The position numbers were made by a program, and so were the translations under genes. This document shows positions 15,162-17,922 of a stretch of DNA of 64,000 nucleotides, piece by piece. Source of the stretch: Photobacterium sp. DA100 (GTDB lineage: Bacteria; Pseudomonadota; Gammaproteobacteria; Enterobacterales; Vibrionaceae); NCBI RefSeq assembly GCF_029223585.1, contig NZ_CP119424.1, positions 124,001 through 188,000 of the forward strand, written 5' to 3'. Numbering within the stretch: position 1 is the first letter of the stretch; each line of letters begins with the position of its first letter. Below the pieces are notes generated by a model. It worked only from the letters and a program-made list of their open reading frames with translations. It made no database searches and was not told the origin of the DNA.

Positions 15162-15764
15162 ATGCAGAAGTTAATCGATGCGCTGGCGACCCAGGGATAT
15201 TTTGTTTGGGATGACTTTCTCCCCCCTGAGCAAGTGAATGAGCTCAAATTGTGTTTGCCGGAGCAATGGACCCAAGCCCGAATTGGCCGTAACGATGAAG
15301 TGGCTCGTGAATCATCGATTCGTAGTGACAAAATTCATTGGCTAGCGGCAGATCAAGGTATCGCGGCACAAGATTACCTGGAGCGTATGGAAGTTATCCG
15401 CCGAGAGGTCAACCAGCACTTTTTTCTCGGCCTGTTTGAATATGAAGCCCATTTTGCCAAGTATGAAAAAGGTGACTTCTACCAGAAGCATTTAGACTGT
15501 TTTCGTGGCAATGAGAATCGCCGCTTAACGACAGTGTTCTATATGAATGACAGCTGGGATGAACAGGATGGTGGCGAGCTGGTGGTCTATGACTTGGATG
15601 ACAAGGAATTGATGAAGCTAGCACCTAAATCAGGCCGCCTGTTTGTGTTCCTGTCCGAGCAGTTTCCTCATGAGGTACTGCCGACCAATGTCGAGCGCTT
15701 CAGTATCGCGGGGTGGTTTCGCACCAACGGCGTGAAAAATAACATGCTCGATATCGCGCAGTAA
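15162..15764 (+). CDS. 2-oxoglutarate/Fe(II)-dependent oxygenase (prolyl-hydroxylase-like)
   Basis: This 200-residue cytosolic oxygenase has the double-stranded beta-helix facial triad: H and D in FYQKHLDCF near 112-114 and the distal His in QFPHEVLP near 172. The 2OG-binding Arg is in VERFSIAGWF about ten residues later. ERRLTTVFYMN-type strands and GGELVVYD fit the PKHD/SM-20 hydroxylase group. The substrate is unknown and may be a protein side chain or a small molecule. It converges on trpS2 across a shared terminator. Confidence 0.87.
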   Translation: MQKLIDALATQGYFVWDDFLPPEQVNELKLCLPEQWTQARIGRNDEVARESSIRSDKIHWLAADQGIAAQDYLERMEVIRREVNQHFFLGLFEYEAHFAKYEKGDFYQKHLDCFRGNENRRLTTVFYMNDSWDEQDGGELVVYDLDDKELMKLAPKSGRLFVFLSEQFPHEVLPTNVERFSIAGWFRTNGVKNNMLDIAQ

Positions 15765-15771
15765 TGTCTTT

Positions 15772-15807
15772 AGCCATACCCTGAGATAACAGGGTATGGC
15801 TATTTAT
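15772..15807. terminator. Terminator between convergent oxygenase and trpS2 genes
   Basis: Twelve-base arms AGCCATACCCTG and CAGGGTATGGCT enclose AGATAA, followed by ATTTATTT on the plus strand. It overlaps the space just before the trpS2 stop. Confidence 0.8.
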
Positions 15808-15808
15808 T

Positions 15809-16861
15809 TCATAGCAAATTCAGCCCAAACGCCGTTTTTACTTTATCGAGTGTTTGTTGCGATTCTTCCTTCGCTTGCTCGGTTCCTTTCTTTAACACCT
15901 CTGTCAGATATCCTTTATCTGCTATCAGCCTTTGTCGGCGGGCACGTATCGGGGCAATCAGCGCCTGCAGGCAATCGGTGAGAATTTGTTTGGTTTTGCC
16001 ATCGCCTAAACCGCCACGTTGATAGTGTTTTTTTAGCTCAGCAATAAATATCGTATCTGGGTGAAATGCATCTAGGTAGGTGAAAACCACATTGCCTTCA
16101 ATTTGCCCCGGTTGGTCGATGGTTAGGTGGCTCGGGTCGGTATACATGGCTTTCACTGCTTGGCCGATGGCTTGATCCGATGCATCGAGCGTAATCACAT
16201 TACCCAGCGACTTGGACATCTTGCTTTTGCCGTCGGCACTGGGCAACCGGCTGACATTGCTCAATAAGGGGTGGCATTCCACTAGGATTTCGCTGTTTGC
16301 CAATGCGTTTACCTTCCTCACAATCTCGTTGGTTTGCTCCAGCATAGGGAGCTGATCATCGCCGACTGGCACCAGCTGAGCTTGGAATGCGGTGATATCG
16401 GCGGCTTGGCTGATAGGGTAGGTGAGAAAACCGGCAGGAATGGAACGGCCAAAGTTCTTTCCTTGGATTTCGTTCTTTACGGTAGGGTTCCGCTCCAGGC
16501 GGGCAATAGAGACCAAGTTAGCGTAATACATTGTCAGCTCGGCAAGGGCCGGGACGCCAGACTGCAAGCAGATGGTGGTTTGGGCTGGGTTTATACCGAC
16601 TGCGAGGTAATCCGCCACCACATTGAGGATGTTGCTGGCGACTTTGCTGGGGGTATTGCCATTGTCGGTAAGCCCCTGCATGTCCGCGACCAGAATCGTT
16701 TGCTGGTTGCCCTGTTGCAGTTCAACCCGTTGTTTCAATGAACCGACATAATGGCCGAGATGGAGCTGCCCTGTTGCCCGATCTCCGGTGAGGATCTTTT
16801 TGCCGGTTGCTATGGTTTTGCTATTAATTGCTGGAGTAAGGGTGTTTGGGGTATCTAGCAT
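15809..16861 (-). CDS. trpS2: Tryptophanyl-tRNA synthetase, second type
   Basis: This is a 350-residue class I synthetase that charges tRNA-Trp. The HIGH-like motif is HLGHYVGSLK and the KMSKS motif is SKMSKSLGN. GDRATGQLHLGHY, VADMQGLT and PVGDDQLPMLE fit TrpS, in particular the group of auxiliary TrpS proteins rather than the usual housekeeping form. GGAGA seven bases upstream fixes the start. The leader on the minus strand encodes a short peptide with tandem Trp codons and a terminator-like hairpin, so expression is probably controlled by attenuation in response to charged tRNA-Trp. A housekeeping trpS elsewhere is expected but cannot be seen here. Confidence 0.92.
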   Translation of the reverse strand: MLDTPNTLTPAINSKTIATGKKILTGDRATGQLHLGHYVGSLKQRVELQQGNQQTILVADMQGLTDNGNTPSKVASNILNVVADYLAVGINPAQTTICLQSGVPALAELTMYYANLVSIARLERNPTVKNEIQGKNFGRSIPAGFLTYPISQAADITAFQAQLVPVGDDQLPMLEQTNEIVRKVNALANSEILVECHPLLSNVSRLPSADGKSKMSKSLGNVITLDASDQAIGQAVKAMYTDPSHLTIDQPGQIEGNVVFTYLDAFHPDTIFIAELKKHYQRGGLGDGKTKQILTDCLQALIAPIRARRQRLIADKGYLTEVLKKGTEQAKEESQQTLDKVKTAFGLNLL

Positions 16862-16885
16862 TGTGTGTCTCCGAAATAGCTAGCA

Positions 16886-16989
16886 GAAAAATAAATGCCG
16901 GAGACAAGGGAAAGAGTTGTTCATAGCCTGCCATCCGGCGGCTTTGAACAAATATGACTATTCAGCACCGCTCTTAAAGAAGAGAGTGC
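16886..16989 (-). promoter_or_regulatory. Putative tryptophan attenuator in the trpS2 leader
   Basis: Three hairpins can be drawn on the minus strand. The pause-type hairpin (16965-16989) pairs GCAC/GTGC plus CTCTT/AAGAG and begins at the second Trp codon of the leader peptide. A possible antiterminator (16917-16951) pairs TTGTTC/GAACAA plus inner AGCCGCC with GGC-A-GGCT. A terminator (16897-16939) pairs GCCGGA/TCCGGC, then ATTTATTTTT at 16886-16896. The second and third share bases and exclude each other. This layout is what transcription attenuation requires. No energies were computed. Confidence 0.65.
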
Positions 16990-17033
16990 CACCAAGAAAG
17001 GTTGATAAGAGGCTTGGAGATAATCATTTGCAT
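16974..17033 (-). CDS. trpS2 leader peptide with tandem Trp codons
   Basis: A 19-codon frame reads MQMIISKPLINLSWWHSLL then TAA. AGGT lies about eight bases before its ATG. Residues 14 and 15 are consecutive TGG codons (16989-16994), placed at the upstream edge of the first hairpin, as in classical amino-acid-biosynthesis leader peptides. A ribosome stalled for lack of charged tRNA-Trp would block that hairpin. The peptide itself probably has no function. Confidence 0.68.
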   Translation of the reverse strand: MQMIISKPLINLSWWHSLL

Positions 17034-17144
17034 GCCATTAACCTACCACTGTTTTTTATCCCGTCAATATAATTTCTGCGGCTGCGTTATCTCTATGAGT
17101 TACTGATGAGGAATCGCCGTCACTTTACAATGTAAATTTCCTTT

Positions 17145-17164
17145 GTCCCCCGCTTGCGGGGGAC
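17145..17164. other. GC-rich hairpin downstream of the exported-protein gene
   Basis: GTCCCCCG, loop CTTG, CGGGGGAC. The stem is strong, but there is no T-tract on either strand, so it may stabilise the 3' end of the minus-strand mRNA more than end it. It also lies upstream of the trpS2 leader. Confidence 0.5.
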
Positions 17165-17178
17165 TAGAAACAAGCGAG

Positions 17179-17922
17179 TTATTTTTCCTGGTTAGCCTGT
17201 TCGATGAGCCGTGTGCGCTCGTTGGTGCCCCGGTTGCGGATCTCATGCATGACAAAGATCAGCGGGTCTCGGGTCCAAGGCTGGCCTGACTCCTTGTCGT
17301 AGTCGTTCGGCAGCTCGATCCCCTCGGGGGCATAGGCATCGATACCGGCATCCTTTGAGGTGTTGATAGTGCGTAGGCTGTGCTCATAGAAACCGACCAC
17401 AACGGCTTTACCGAGTTTATCAGTTCCTCCGGCCAGTTTAACTATCTCTTCGGCAACGCCAATCGTACTGAGGTAGATGATGGTGCCGTCAGCGCCCACT
17501 TTGGGATAGATGGCAGTGAGATCCTTTTCATCAATACGATCGCCAATTTCCTGGGCAATTTCCCACTGGGCATATACCGGCTTGCCGGTTTGCTTGTAAA
17601 TCTCCACAACTGTATCTGCCAGCGCTTTGTTCATCGGACCGGGCGACTGGTTGCCATTTTCGGCAATTCGGTTACCAAAGGCATAGGCAATAATACTGTC
17701 TGCTTGATCAAGCGGTAGGGGTTCCCCTTGCCAGGTCAGTAGGTTTTTCATAATAAAGTCAGCTGTGTGGGCTGCTACTTTCTCATCTTTTAATTGTTCG
17801 GTTAATTTTGCTTCTATCGCTGCCTGTAAATCGGCGTCCGATAATTGTTGTGCGATGACCGCGGGGGAAATGAAAGCAATGGTTGAAATTGCAAGCACGG
17901 CTGATTTAGCAATTATGTTCAT
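17179..17922 (-). CDS. Exported protein of unknown function
   Basis: This 247-residue protein has a signal peptide (MNIIAKSAVLAISTIAFIS, cleavage near VIAQQ). The mature part contains a helical N-terminal region, a phrase ADSIIAYAFGNRIAENG, and a C-terminal section with PLIFVMHEIRNRGTNERTRL. AGGA six bases upstream favours ATG 17922 over the nearer ATG at 17928. The layout loosely recalls periplasmic proteins of the YdcF/SanA (DUF218) type, but I cannot confirm this. It is 146 bases upstream of the trpS2 leader peptide on the same strand, separated by a hairpin. Confidence 0.65.
   Translation of the reverse strand: MNIIAKSAVLAISTIAFISPAVIAQQLSDADLQAAIEAKLTEQLKDEKVAAHTADFIMKNLLTWQGEPLPLDQADSIIAYAFGNRIAENGNQSPGPMNKALADTVVEIYKQTGKPVYAQWEIAQEIGDRIDEKDLTAIYPKVGADGTIIYLSTIGVAEEIVKLAGGTDKLGKAVVVGFYEHSLRTINTSKDAGIDAYAPEGIELPNDYDKESGQPWTRDPLIFVMHEIRNRGTNERTRLIEQANQEK

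Follow-up and report, generated by a model that had tools for sequence, protein, structure and literature searches.

The auxiliary tryptophanyl-tRNA synthetase gene trpS2 of Photobacterium sp. DA100 is preceded by a short leader with tandem tryptophan codons, which probably senses Trp-tRNA through a translating ribosome and controls translation of the synthetase, by way of a leaderless Trp-Trp (WW) peptide and a kinetic relay in which RNA segment 2 yields to segment 3a and 3a to segment 4. The gene lies in a window of 64,000 nucleotides, part of the smaller contig of a 6.0-Mb genome in two contigs, and all features of the window described below are on the minus strand. In its widest form, which we hold only tentatively, this reading is that one leaderless, translational tryptophan attenuator ranges very widely: it would occur in several orders of Gammaproteobacteria, in at least one further class of the phylum and in Desulfobacterota, and would also stand before the trpS2 genes of Salmonella and of enterobacterial plasmids. 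Shortage of Trp-tRNA would make it turn on a spare TrpRS-II, through the kinetic hand-over from 2 to 3a to 4 and not through termination. If true, it would explain how many Proteobacteria hold back a second TrpRS and bring it in once the first no longer suffices, as might happen with tryptophan-analogue inhibitors or tryptophan drain; it would also extend leaderless tryptophan leaders beyond the actinobacteria and alphaproteobacteria, where they are in print, and offer a small model system in which leaderless translation and co-transcriptional hand-over during RNA folding could be studied.

The leader ORF (17033–16974), predicted to be leaderless, encodes MQMIISKPLINLSWWHSLL and carries TGGTGG at 16994–16989; its stop lies 112 nt before the start of trpS2 (16861–15809; 350 aa). 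Folding of the 172-nt leader yields −49.3 kcal/mol (z −3.45), a stability that none of 200 shuffles equalled. GCCGGA (16939–16934) is complementary to TCCGGC (16902–16897), which is followed by the U-rich stretch ATTTATTTTTC (16896–16886). All this bears out what a sequence-only reading of the locus had described, and that reading named the sensing part of the leader rightly. The synthetase carries HLGH and KMSKS motifs, and its best solved relatives are structures of Deinococcus TrpRS II (1yi8/2a4m; E 6.3e-105 and 4.8e-104), with the next family at 9.8e-59. The best other trpS of the genome is on the other contig and is 31% identical to trpS2; the presence of this other trpS, and a sequence that among solved TrpRS comes nearest to TrpRS II, mark TrpS2 as an auxiliary TrpRS of the TrpRS-II type.

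A scan of named genomes gave 307 confirmed trpS2 relatives, and among the best 80 of these 307 a short ORF ending WW[RHC][SA]... lies just upstream of trpS2 in 77, an arrangement typical of ribosome-mediated amino-acid attenuators, in which a small ORF carrying cognate codons precedes a gene of the amino acid concerned. The three exceptions are Psychromonas sp. CD1 (L078), where a leader is not recognisable, Alcanivorax sp. 24 (L088), where none was seen, and a locus (L109) with no visible WW leader on a contig that starts 231 nt upstream. Together with the window the 77 loci make 78 leaders, or 58 (alignment A1) after near-identical ones were dropped; a wider look took in 110 loci, the minus-strand loci of some contigs having dropped out before the set of 78 was made. 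Every one of the 78 has WW in frame with an ATG 33–51 nt upstream and with a nearby stop, and encodes a peptide of 16–23 residues with two tryptophans that is poorly conserved outside WW; the codon after WW is CGC in 47, CGT in 15, CAC in 9 and TGC in 7. The TGGTGG motif is invariant in the 58 aligned leaders, which were themselves chosen by it.

Within a draw from the family, trpS2 is present in 130 of 296 genomes. In 295 genomes drawn from the order, it occurs (E up to 1e-60) in 49, of which 44 have a tandem-Trp leader, and a covariance model built from the 58 leaders found one match each in 25 genomes, all 25 adjoining trpS2. Of the 24 trpS2-bearing genomes without a model match, 19 still have a WW leader; the remaining five comprise one genome (G470) with a single-Trp leader recognised by eye, the contig of Psychromonas CD1 already mentioned, and a further three in which no leader precedes a distant trpS2 homologue of 41–53% identity. 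The leader of G470 (L169), MLSFINLNLSVLIGWRAYFKRR, is a natural single-codon variant. Across a phylum-wide draw, trpS2 was found in 27 of 398 genomes (two as gene fragments outside the upstream regions read), ten of them already known to have the leader; 15 further upstream regions contain WW in nine cases (L207 by eye), six of these nine from other classes, and a single tryptophan near the stop in one (L205), with five regions lacking a leader. A W-N-W motif in L197 sits in an unrelated longer ORF and was not counted.

The leader reaches far beyond Vibrionaceae, with WW leaders in Desulfoluna (L080, L102), Colwellia, Moritella, Shewanella, Pseudoalteromonas and Aeromonas caviae. The trpS2 leader of Salmonella Infantis reads MNTKRSNATQRHLRWWLPS, and the plasmid-borne trpS2 of one Escherichia coli and one Klebsiella have the leader MNRNVVISHLRRWWLPA; the one Acinetobacter trpS2 copy examined has no leader upstream. 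On the E. coli and Klebsiella plasmids (L212, L213) trpS2 and its WW leader are flanked by IS elements, and on the Klebsiella plasmid the two lie downstream of mtr, the tryptophan permease gene. Of 89 plasmid records in which TrpS2 has a relative at E up to 1e-60, 24 come from Staphylococcus. In Pseudoalteromonas luteoviolacea IPB1 (L099:4072–6933), trpS2 adjoins a VioE gene (Pfam) and two ORFs resembling FAD enzymes, probably a violacein cluster, a pathway that consumes tryptophan.

The leader is probably read from the first base of its message, a feature that had gone unnoticed before. A sigma-70-like promoter keeps a constant spacing to the leader AUG, in the window as TTGACG (17067–17062), a 16-nt spacer and TAGGTT (17045–17040, at −12 to −7 from the AUG). 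When the 78 leaders and the 19 distant ones, 97 in all, were reduced to 76, with the ATG chosen without regard to promoters, TTG was found at −35 of the ATG in 44 of 76 and TANNNT at −12 in 47 of 76, the next best offset giving 12 of 76; these are the positions usual for the −10 hexamer (−12 to −7) and the −35 element (near −35) relative to a start site. Shine-Dalgarno (SD)-like 4-mers before the leader ATG number zero in the 78 leaders against 5.4 expected from upstream windows, and two in the wider set of 76. Given the conserved promoter spacing and the near absence of SDs, we predict a leaderless mRNA for the peptide, its first base being the A of the AUG. The only minus-strand promoter-like site in a consensus scan of 15700–17300 is TAGAGA/TATATT at 17095–17066, which would imply a 5′ leader of ~25 nt; the conserved TTGACG/TAGGTT site is absent from that scan's list. 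The likely promoter (17067–17040) falls outside the span 16862–17033 named before.

The family keeps a chain of competing helices, 1:2, 2:3a, 3a:3b, 3a:4 and 4:5. In the window these involve segment 1 (16990–16982), which pairs with 2; segment 2 (16973–16961), which pairs with 1 or 3a; hairpin B (3a:3b; 16950–16918), in which 3a is GCCGCCGGA at 16942–16934; segment 4 (16907–16897), the partner of 3a, in which the anti-SD TGTCTCCG (16906–16899) overlaps TCCGGC; and segment 5 (16873–16866), the trpS2 SD within CGGAGACA, an 8-nt complement of TGTCTCCG that gives 8 pairs. Over the 58 rows of A1 the paired cells amount to 95.1% for 1:2, 100% for 2:3a, 83.0% for the apical stem of B, 93.7% for 3a:4 and 85.5% for 4:5. 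In the same order, doubly changed cells number 8, 10, 13, 64 and 31, against shuffled means of 0.7, 3.0, 4.1, 23.2 and 16.7, and 4, 163, 47, 0 and 20 of 500 shuffles, which ignore kinship, reached the observed doubly changed pairs. The best-covarying helix is 3a:4, with seven pairs changed on both sides; by these counts covariation appears to support 3a:4 and 1:2 well, 4:5 moderately, and B and 2:3a weakly.

Sliding the partner lowers the paired percentage for every helix. A shift of +3 gives 1:2 a higher covariation score than it has in register, and shifts of +2 or +3 leave 4:5 with equally many doubly changed pairs (five) in fewer cells. The 3a:4 helix extends into the start of 3b (85.8%), giving the left part of segment 4 two partners, so that the SD cannot be the only source of variation in that part. 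Changes on both sides of 4:5 are visible by eye, with TTGCCTC facing GAGGTAA in L040 and L055 and TATATTTC facing GAGATATA in L052, and a change in the residue after WW goes along with one in its RNA partner (CGC facing GCG, TGC facing GCA). When the 19 distant leaders—the extra WW leaders of the order draw that have no covariance-model match—were mapped on A1, paired cells came to 70/114 for 1:2, 81/95 for 2:3a, 109/114 for B, 101/117 for 3a:4 and 73/148 for 4:5; misplaced segments, we think, lowered the counts for 1:2 and 4:5. A pairing of the Trp codons with 3a was set aside: it is possible in sequence throughout and has a mean folding probability of 0.00, and it cannot show covariation because TGGTGG is the selection motif. 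In the Aeromonas-like leaders (L173–L185, L171–L172), segment 2, AGGCGGCA, is directly complementary to segment 4, TGTCGCCT, a pairing that may offer a shorter route to freeing the SD and is seen in the predicted pre-SD fold of L173.

Over the 58 leaders, the trpS2 SD is unpaired with a mean probability of 0.11 (median 0.00), compared with 0.26 when the upstream sequence is shuffled; 48 of 58 leaders expose it less than their own shuffles do on average, and 27 less than any of the 12 shuffles. An SD masked by an anti-SD that has an alternative partner (4:5, 3a:4) is the structural arrangement of a translational attenuator, and the output is more likely to be SD masking than termination.

On the ORF, its tandem tryptophans, the fixed promoter position, the pairing potential of five helices and the link to trpS2, all shown by comparing sequences, we would build the following course of events. 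The first transcribed base would be the A of the leader AUG, and ribosomes would begin the WW peptide at the very 5′ end, no SD being involved. With Trp-tRNA plentiful, the ribosome would reach the leader stop and cover segment 2 (or 1:2 would re-form), 3a would fold with 3b into hairpin B, and segment 4, left free, would pair with the emerging SD, keeping trpS2 off. With Trp-tRNA scarce, through tryptophan starvation or because the main TrpRS is inhibited or lost, the ribosome would stall at WW and cover segment 1; segment 2 would pair with 3a, B would be delayed, and 3a would capture segment 4 ahead of SD synthesis, so that the SD stays accessible.

The order of these events and the direction of the response were modelled by folding growing transcripts from which we removed the footprint of a ribosome, placed either at a stall with a Trp codon occupying its A site or on the leader stop codon. 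As 3a emerges, the mean for 2:3a is 1.00 in the stalled state versus 0.03 in the stop state; as 3b emerges, B reaches 1.00 at the stop and 0.85 in the stalled state, in which 2:3a falls to 0.21. Once segment 4 has emerged, 3a:4 is favoured in all states, with equilibrium values just before the SD of 0.75 stalled versus 0.94 at the stop (lower on stalling in 27 of 58 leaders and higher in two). After the SD has emerged, B and 4:5 are favoured in all ribosome states, and full-length equilibrium folding with ribosome footprints gave the same SD exposure in every state. Since final SD exposure is unchanged and stalling lowers 3a:4, equilibrium alone does not give the proposed switch. Direct-path barriers suggest how kinetics might: their means are 15.6 kcal/mol from B to 3a:4 in the stop state, and 3.9 from 2:3a to 3a:4 and 10.3 from 2:3a to B in the stalled state, and the barrier from B to 3a:4 exceeds that from 2:3a to 3a:4 in 58 of 58 leaders. 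The paths are direct and nested and are made to end in 3a:4; they take no account of loop invasion, which could lower the barrier for B. With B held formed in both states, the pre-SD occupancy of segment 4 is 0.54 stalled versus 0.14 at the stop (47 of 58 leaders scored), rising by more than 0.2 on stalling in 37 of the 47 (the other 11 of 58 being unscored); with the stalled state left free it is 0.84 in the 47 scored leaders. The barrier to reversion of 3a:4 has a mean of 16.3 and a median of 18.8, slow to revert on average, and a lowest value of 0.0. For the 19 distant leaders, with the lowest-energy pre-SD fold as target, the barrier order held in seven, so that it is not general there; stalling raised the occupancy of segment 4 in five and lowered it in none. 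We infer the direction of the response, then, from kinetic trapping, the nested-path heuristic and the assumed footprints. The modest strict covariation for 4:5, B and 2:3a and the opposing pre-SD equilibrium lowered our confidence in the mechanism slightly, to a level at which we still regard it as probable.

The strongest rival, which we consider rather unlikely, is classical transcription attenuation, in which 3a:4 or B would be an intrinsic terminator in replete cells, 2:3a the antiterminator on a WW stall, and 4:5 secondary. That stalling lowers pre-SD 3a:4 is what a terminator would require, no other helix covaries as well as 3a:4, and in the window a U-rich stretch does follow GCCGGA:UCCGGC. 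That stretch is not general in the family: at least five T in the 8 nt after segment 4 are found in 16 of 58 leaders and before it in 25 of 58, leaving 42 of 58 without a T stretch after segment 4, and the mean T per 8 nt (3.7 after segment 4, 4.1 before it, 3.2 after segment 2) is no higher than in other linkers. The 3a:4 loop is long, a terminator pattern scan of 15700–17300, limited to loops of 3–8 nt, gave no minus-strand site, and termination assigns no role to hairpin B, which keeps 3a from 4, or to the retained anti-SD:SD helix. The earlier claim of an attenuator thus stands as to its Trp-codon leader, its alternative hairpins, its place before a second trpS and its conservation in orthologues, and to the extent that sequence can tell it withstands the refutation named beforehand, the absence of conserved Trp codons or hairpins in orthologous leaders; a terminator and antiterminator as the conserved mechanism are less supported, the anti-SD:SD helix being kept instead, although a terminator may operate in this species. 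Nor, in the window, do antiterminator and terminator fully exclude each other in the way that had been proposed: parts of both 2:3a and GCCGGA:UCCGGC coexist in one pre-SD stalled-state fold as computed.

A response of the opposite sign, or to another signal, is improbable. Here stalling would close the SD, for example through an arrest peptide sensing free tryptophan, as tnaC does. Simple partner logic, by which 2:3a leaves segment 4 free for the SD, points that way, and equilibrium folding is compatible with it; against this, silencing a synthetase when its own product is short would be perverse, and a peptide poorly conserved outside WW, in which the residue after WW tracks its RNA partner, argues for RNA pairing and not peptide sequence as what is kept. 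Least probable of all is a conserved RNA structure at the trpS2 start with a leader peptide of no regulatory role, a reading that the near absence of SDs before the leader AUG would suit, and which is at odds with the in-frame ATG, WW and close stop of all 78 leaders and with a promoter at a fixed distance from the leader ATG.

The translational attenuator that we favour has parallels among known systems. In the E. coli trp leader, tandem Trp codons lie at the edge of a 1:2 hairpin that has a 2:3 competitor, and the trpS2 leader resembles that of the trp operon (RF00513) in all three respects; Rfam gave no relevant match at the trpS2 leader, RF00513 included, either at gathering thresholds over the whole window or at E up to 5 over 16700–17300. 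The genome has its own trp-type leader elsewhere (C1:2760346), MVQQIHRQLCAFSSWWWHFPTRVV, with three tryptophans in a row, an RF00513 match and a U-tract, and it is unlike the trpS2 leader in having an SD-like AAAGGA before its ATG. This trp-type leader (L118:1465–1600, G000) precedes a gene other than trpE, which by its look we take to encode DAHP synthase. In ermC-type translational attenuation, stalling on a leader peptide decides whether an anti-SD masks the SD; the trpS2 leader shares that logic and differs in that the signal would be Trp-tRNA, not a drug, and in the extra local hairpin and 3a hand-over that we propose. The Streptomyces trpRS1 attenuator has reportedly been studied experimentally by Vecchione and Sello.

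In PMC1262725, attenuators are predicted before Streptomyces trpS and leuS genes, including trpS2 of S. avermitilis, and pheST attenuation is mentioned for gammaproteobacteria. PMC8079986 describes a leaderless trpL2, MMTRTCTQLWRAA, before trpS in S. lividans, terminating through two hairpins without a uridine-rich stretch after them. These Streptomyces leaders share with ours a Trp-codon peptide before trpS, leaderless in S. lividans and predicted to be so here, and the S. lividans case also resembles our family in lacking a uridine-rich stretch as a general feature; trpL2 has one tryptophan versus WW here, and the likeness is drawn from its description and not from its sequence. The trpL of S. 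meliloti likewise starts at its ATG according to PMC7298713, and PMC9031893 cites mycobacterial leaderless polycysteine ORFs, which are similarly short ORFs with tandem codons of one amino acid that tune a downstream gene, and which differ in amino acid (cysteine) and phylum, a likeness that stops short of mechanism. A literature search covering few subscription journals found, in the text available, no description of a proteobacterial trpS leader, nothing on leader-peptide attenuators of Vibrio trpS, and nothing on translational attenuation by uncharged tRNA via a Trp leader peptide. The earlier remark that such a leader is poorly described in this group agrees with that search, although attenuation of trpS has already been put forward for Streptomyces (PMC1262725 and PMC8079986). 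A Trp leader before trpS is therefore of a known kind, as the Streptomyces case in PMC8079986 illustrates; on the literature so covered, the probably leaderless, SD-masking proteobacterial form would be new.

As an auxiliary enzyme TrpS2 is comparable, beyond Deinococcus TrpRS II, to the indolmycin-resistant TrpRS1 of Streptomyces; indolmycin-resistant second TrpRS are the subject of a review, PMC9437257. Nitric oxide synthase, sought as a possible partner, was not found in the Photobacterium sp. DA100 genome. Salmonella has been suggested to tolerate trpS insertions because of trpS2 (PMC3487940), and in PMC2805695 trpS2 is 2-fold up in biofilm, alongside trp genes.
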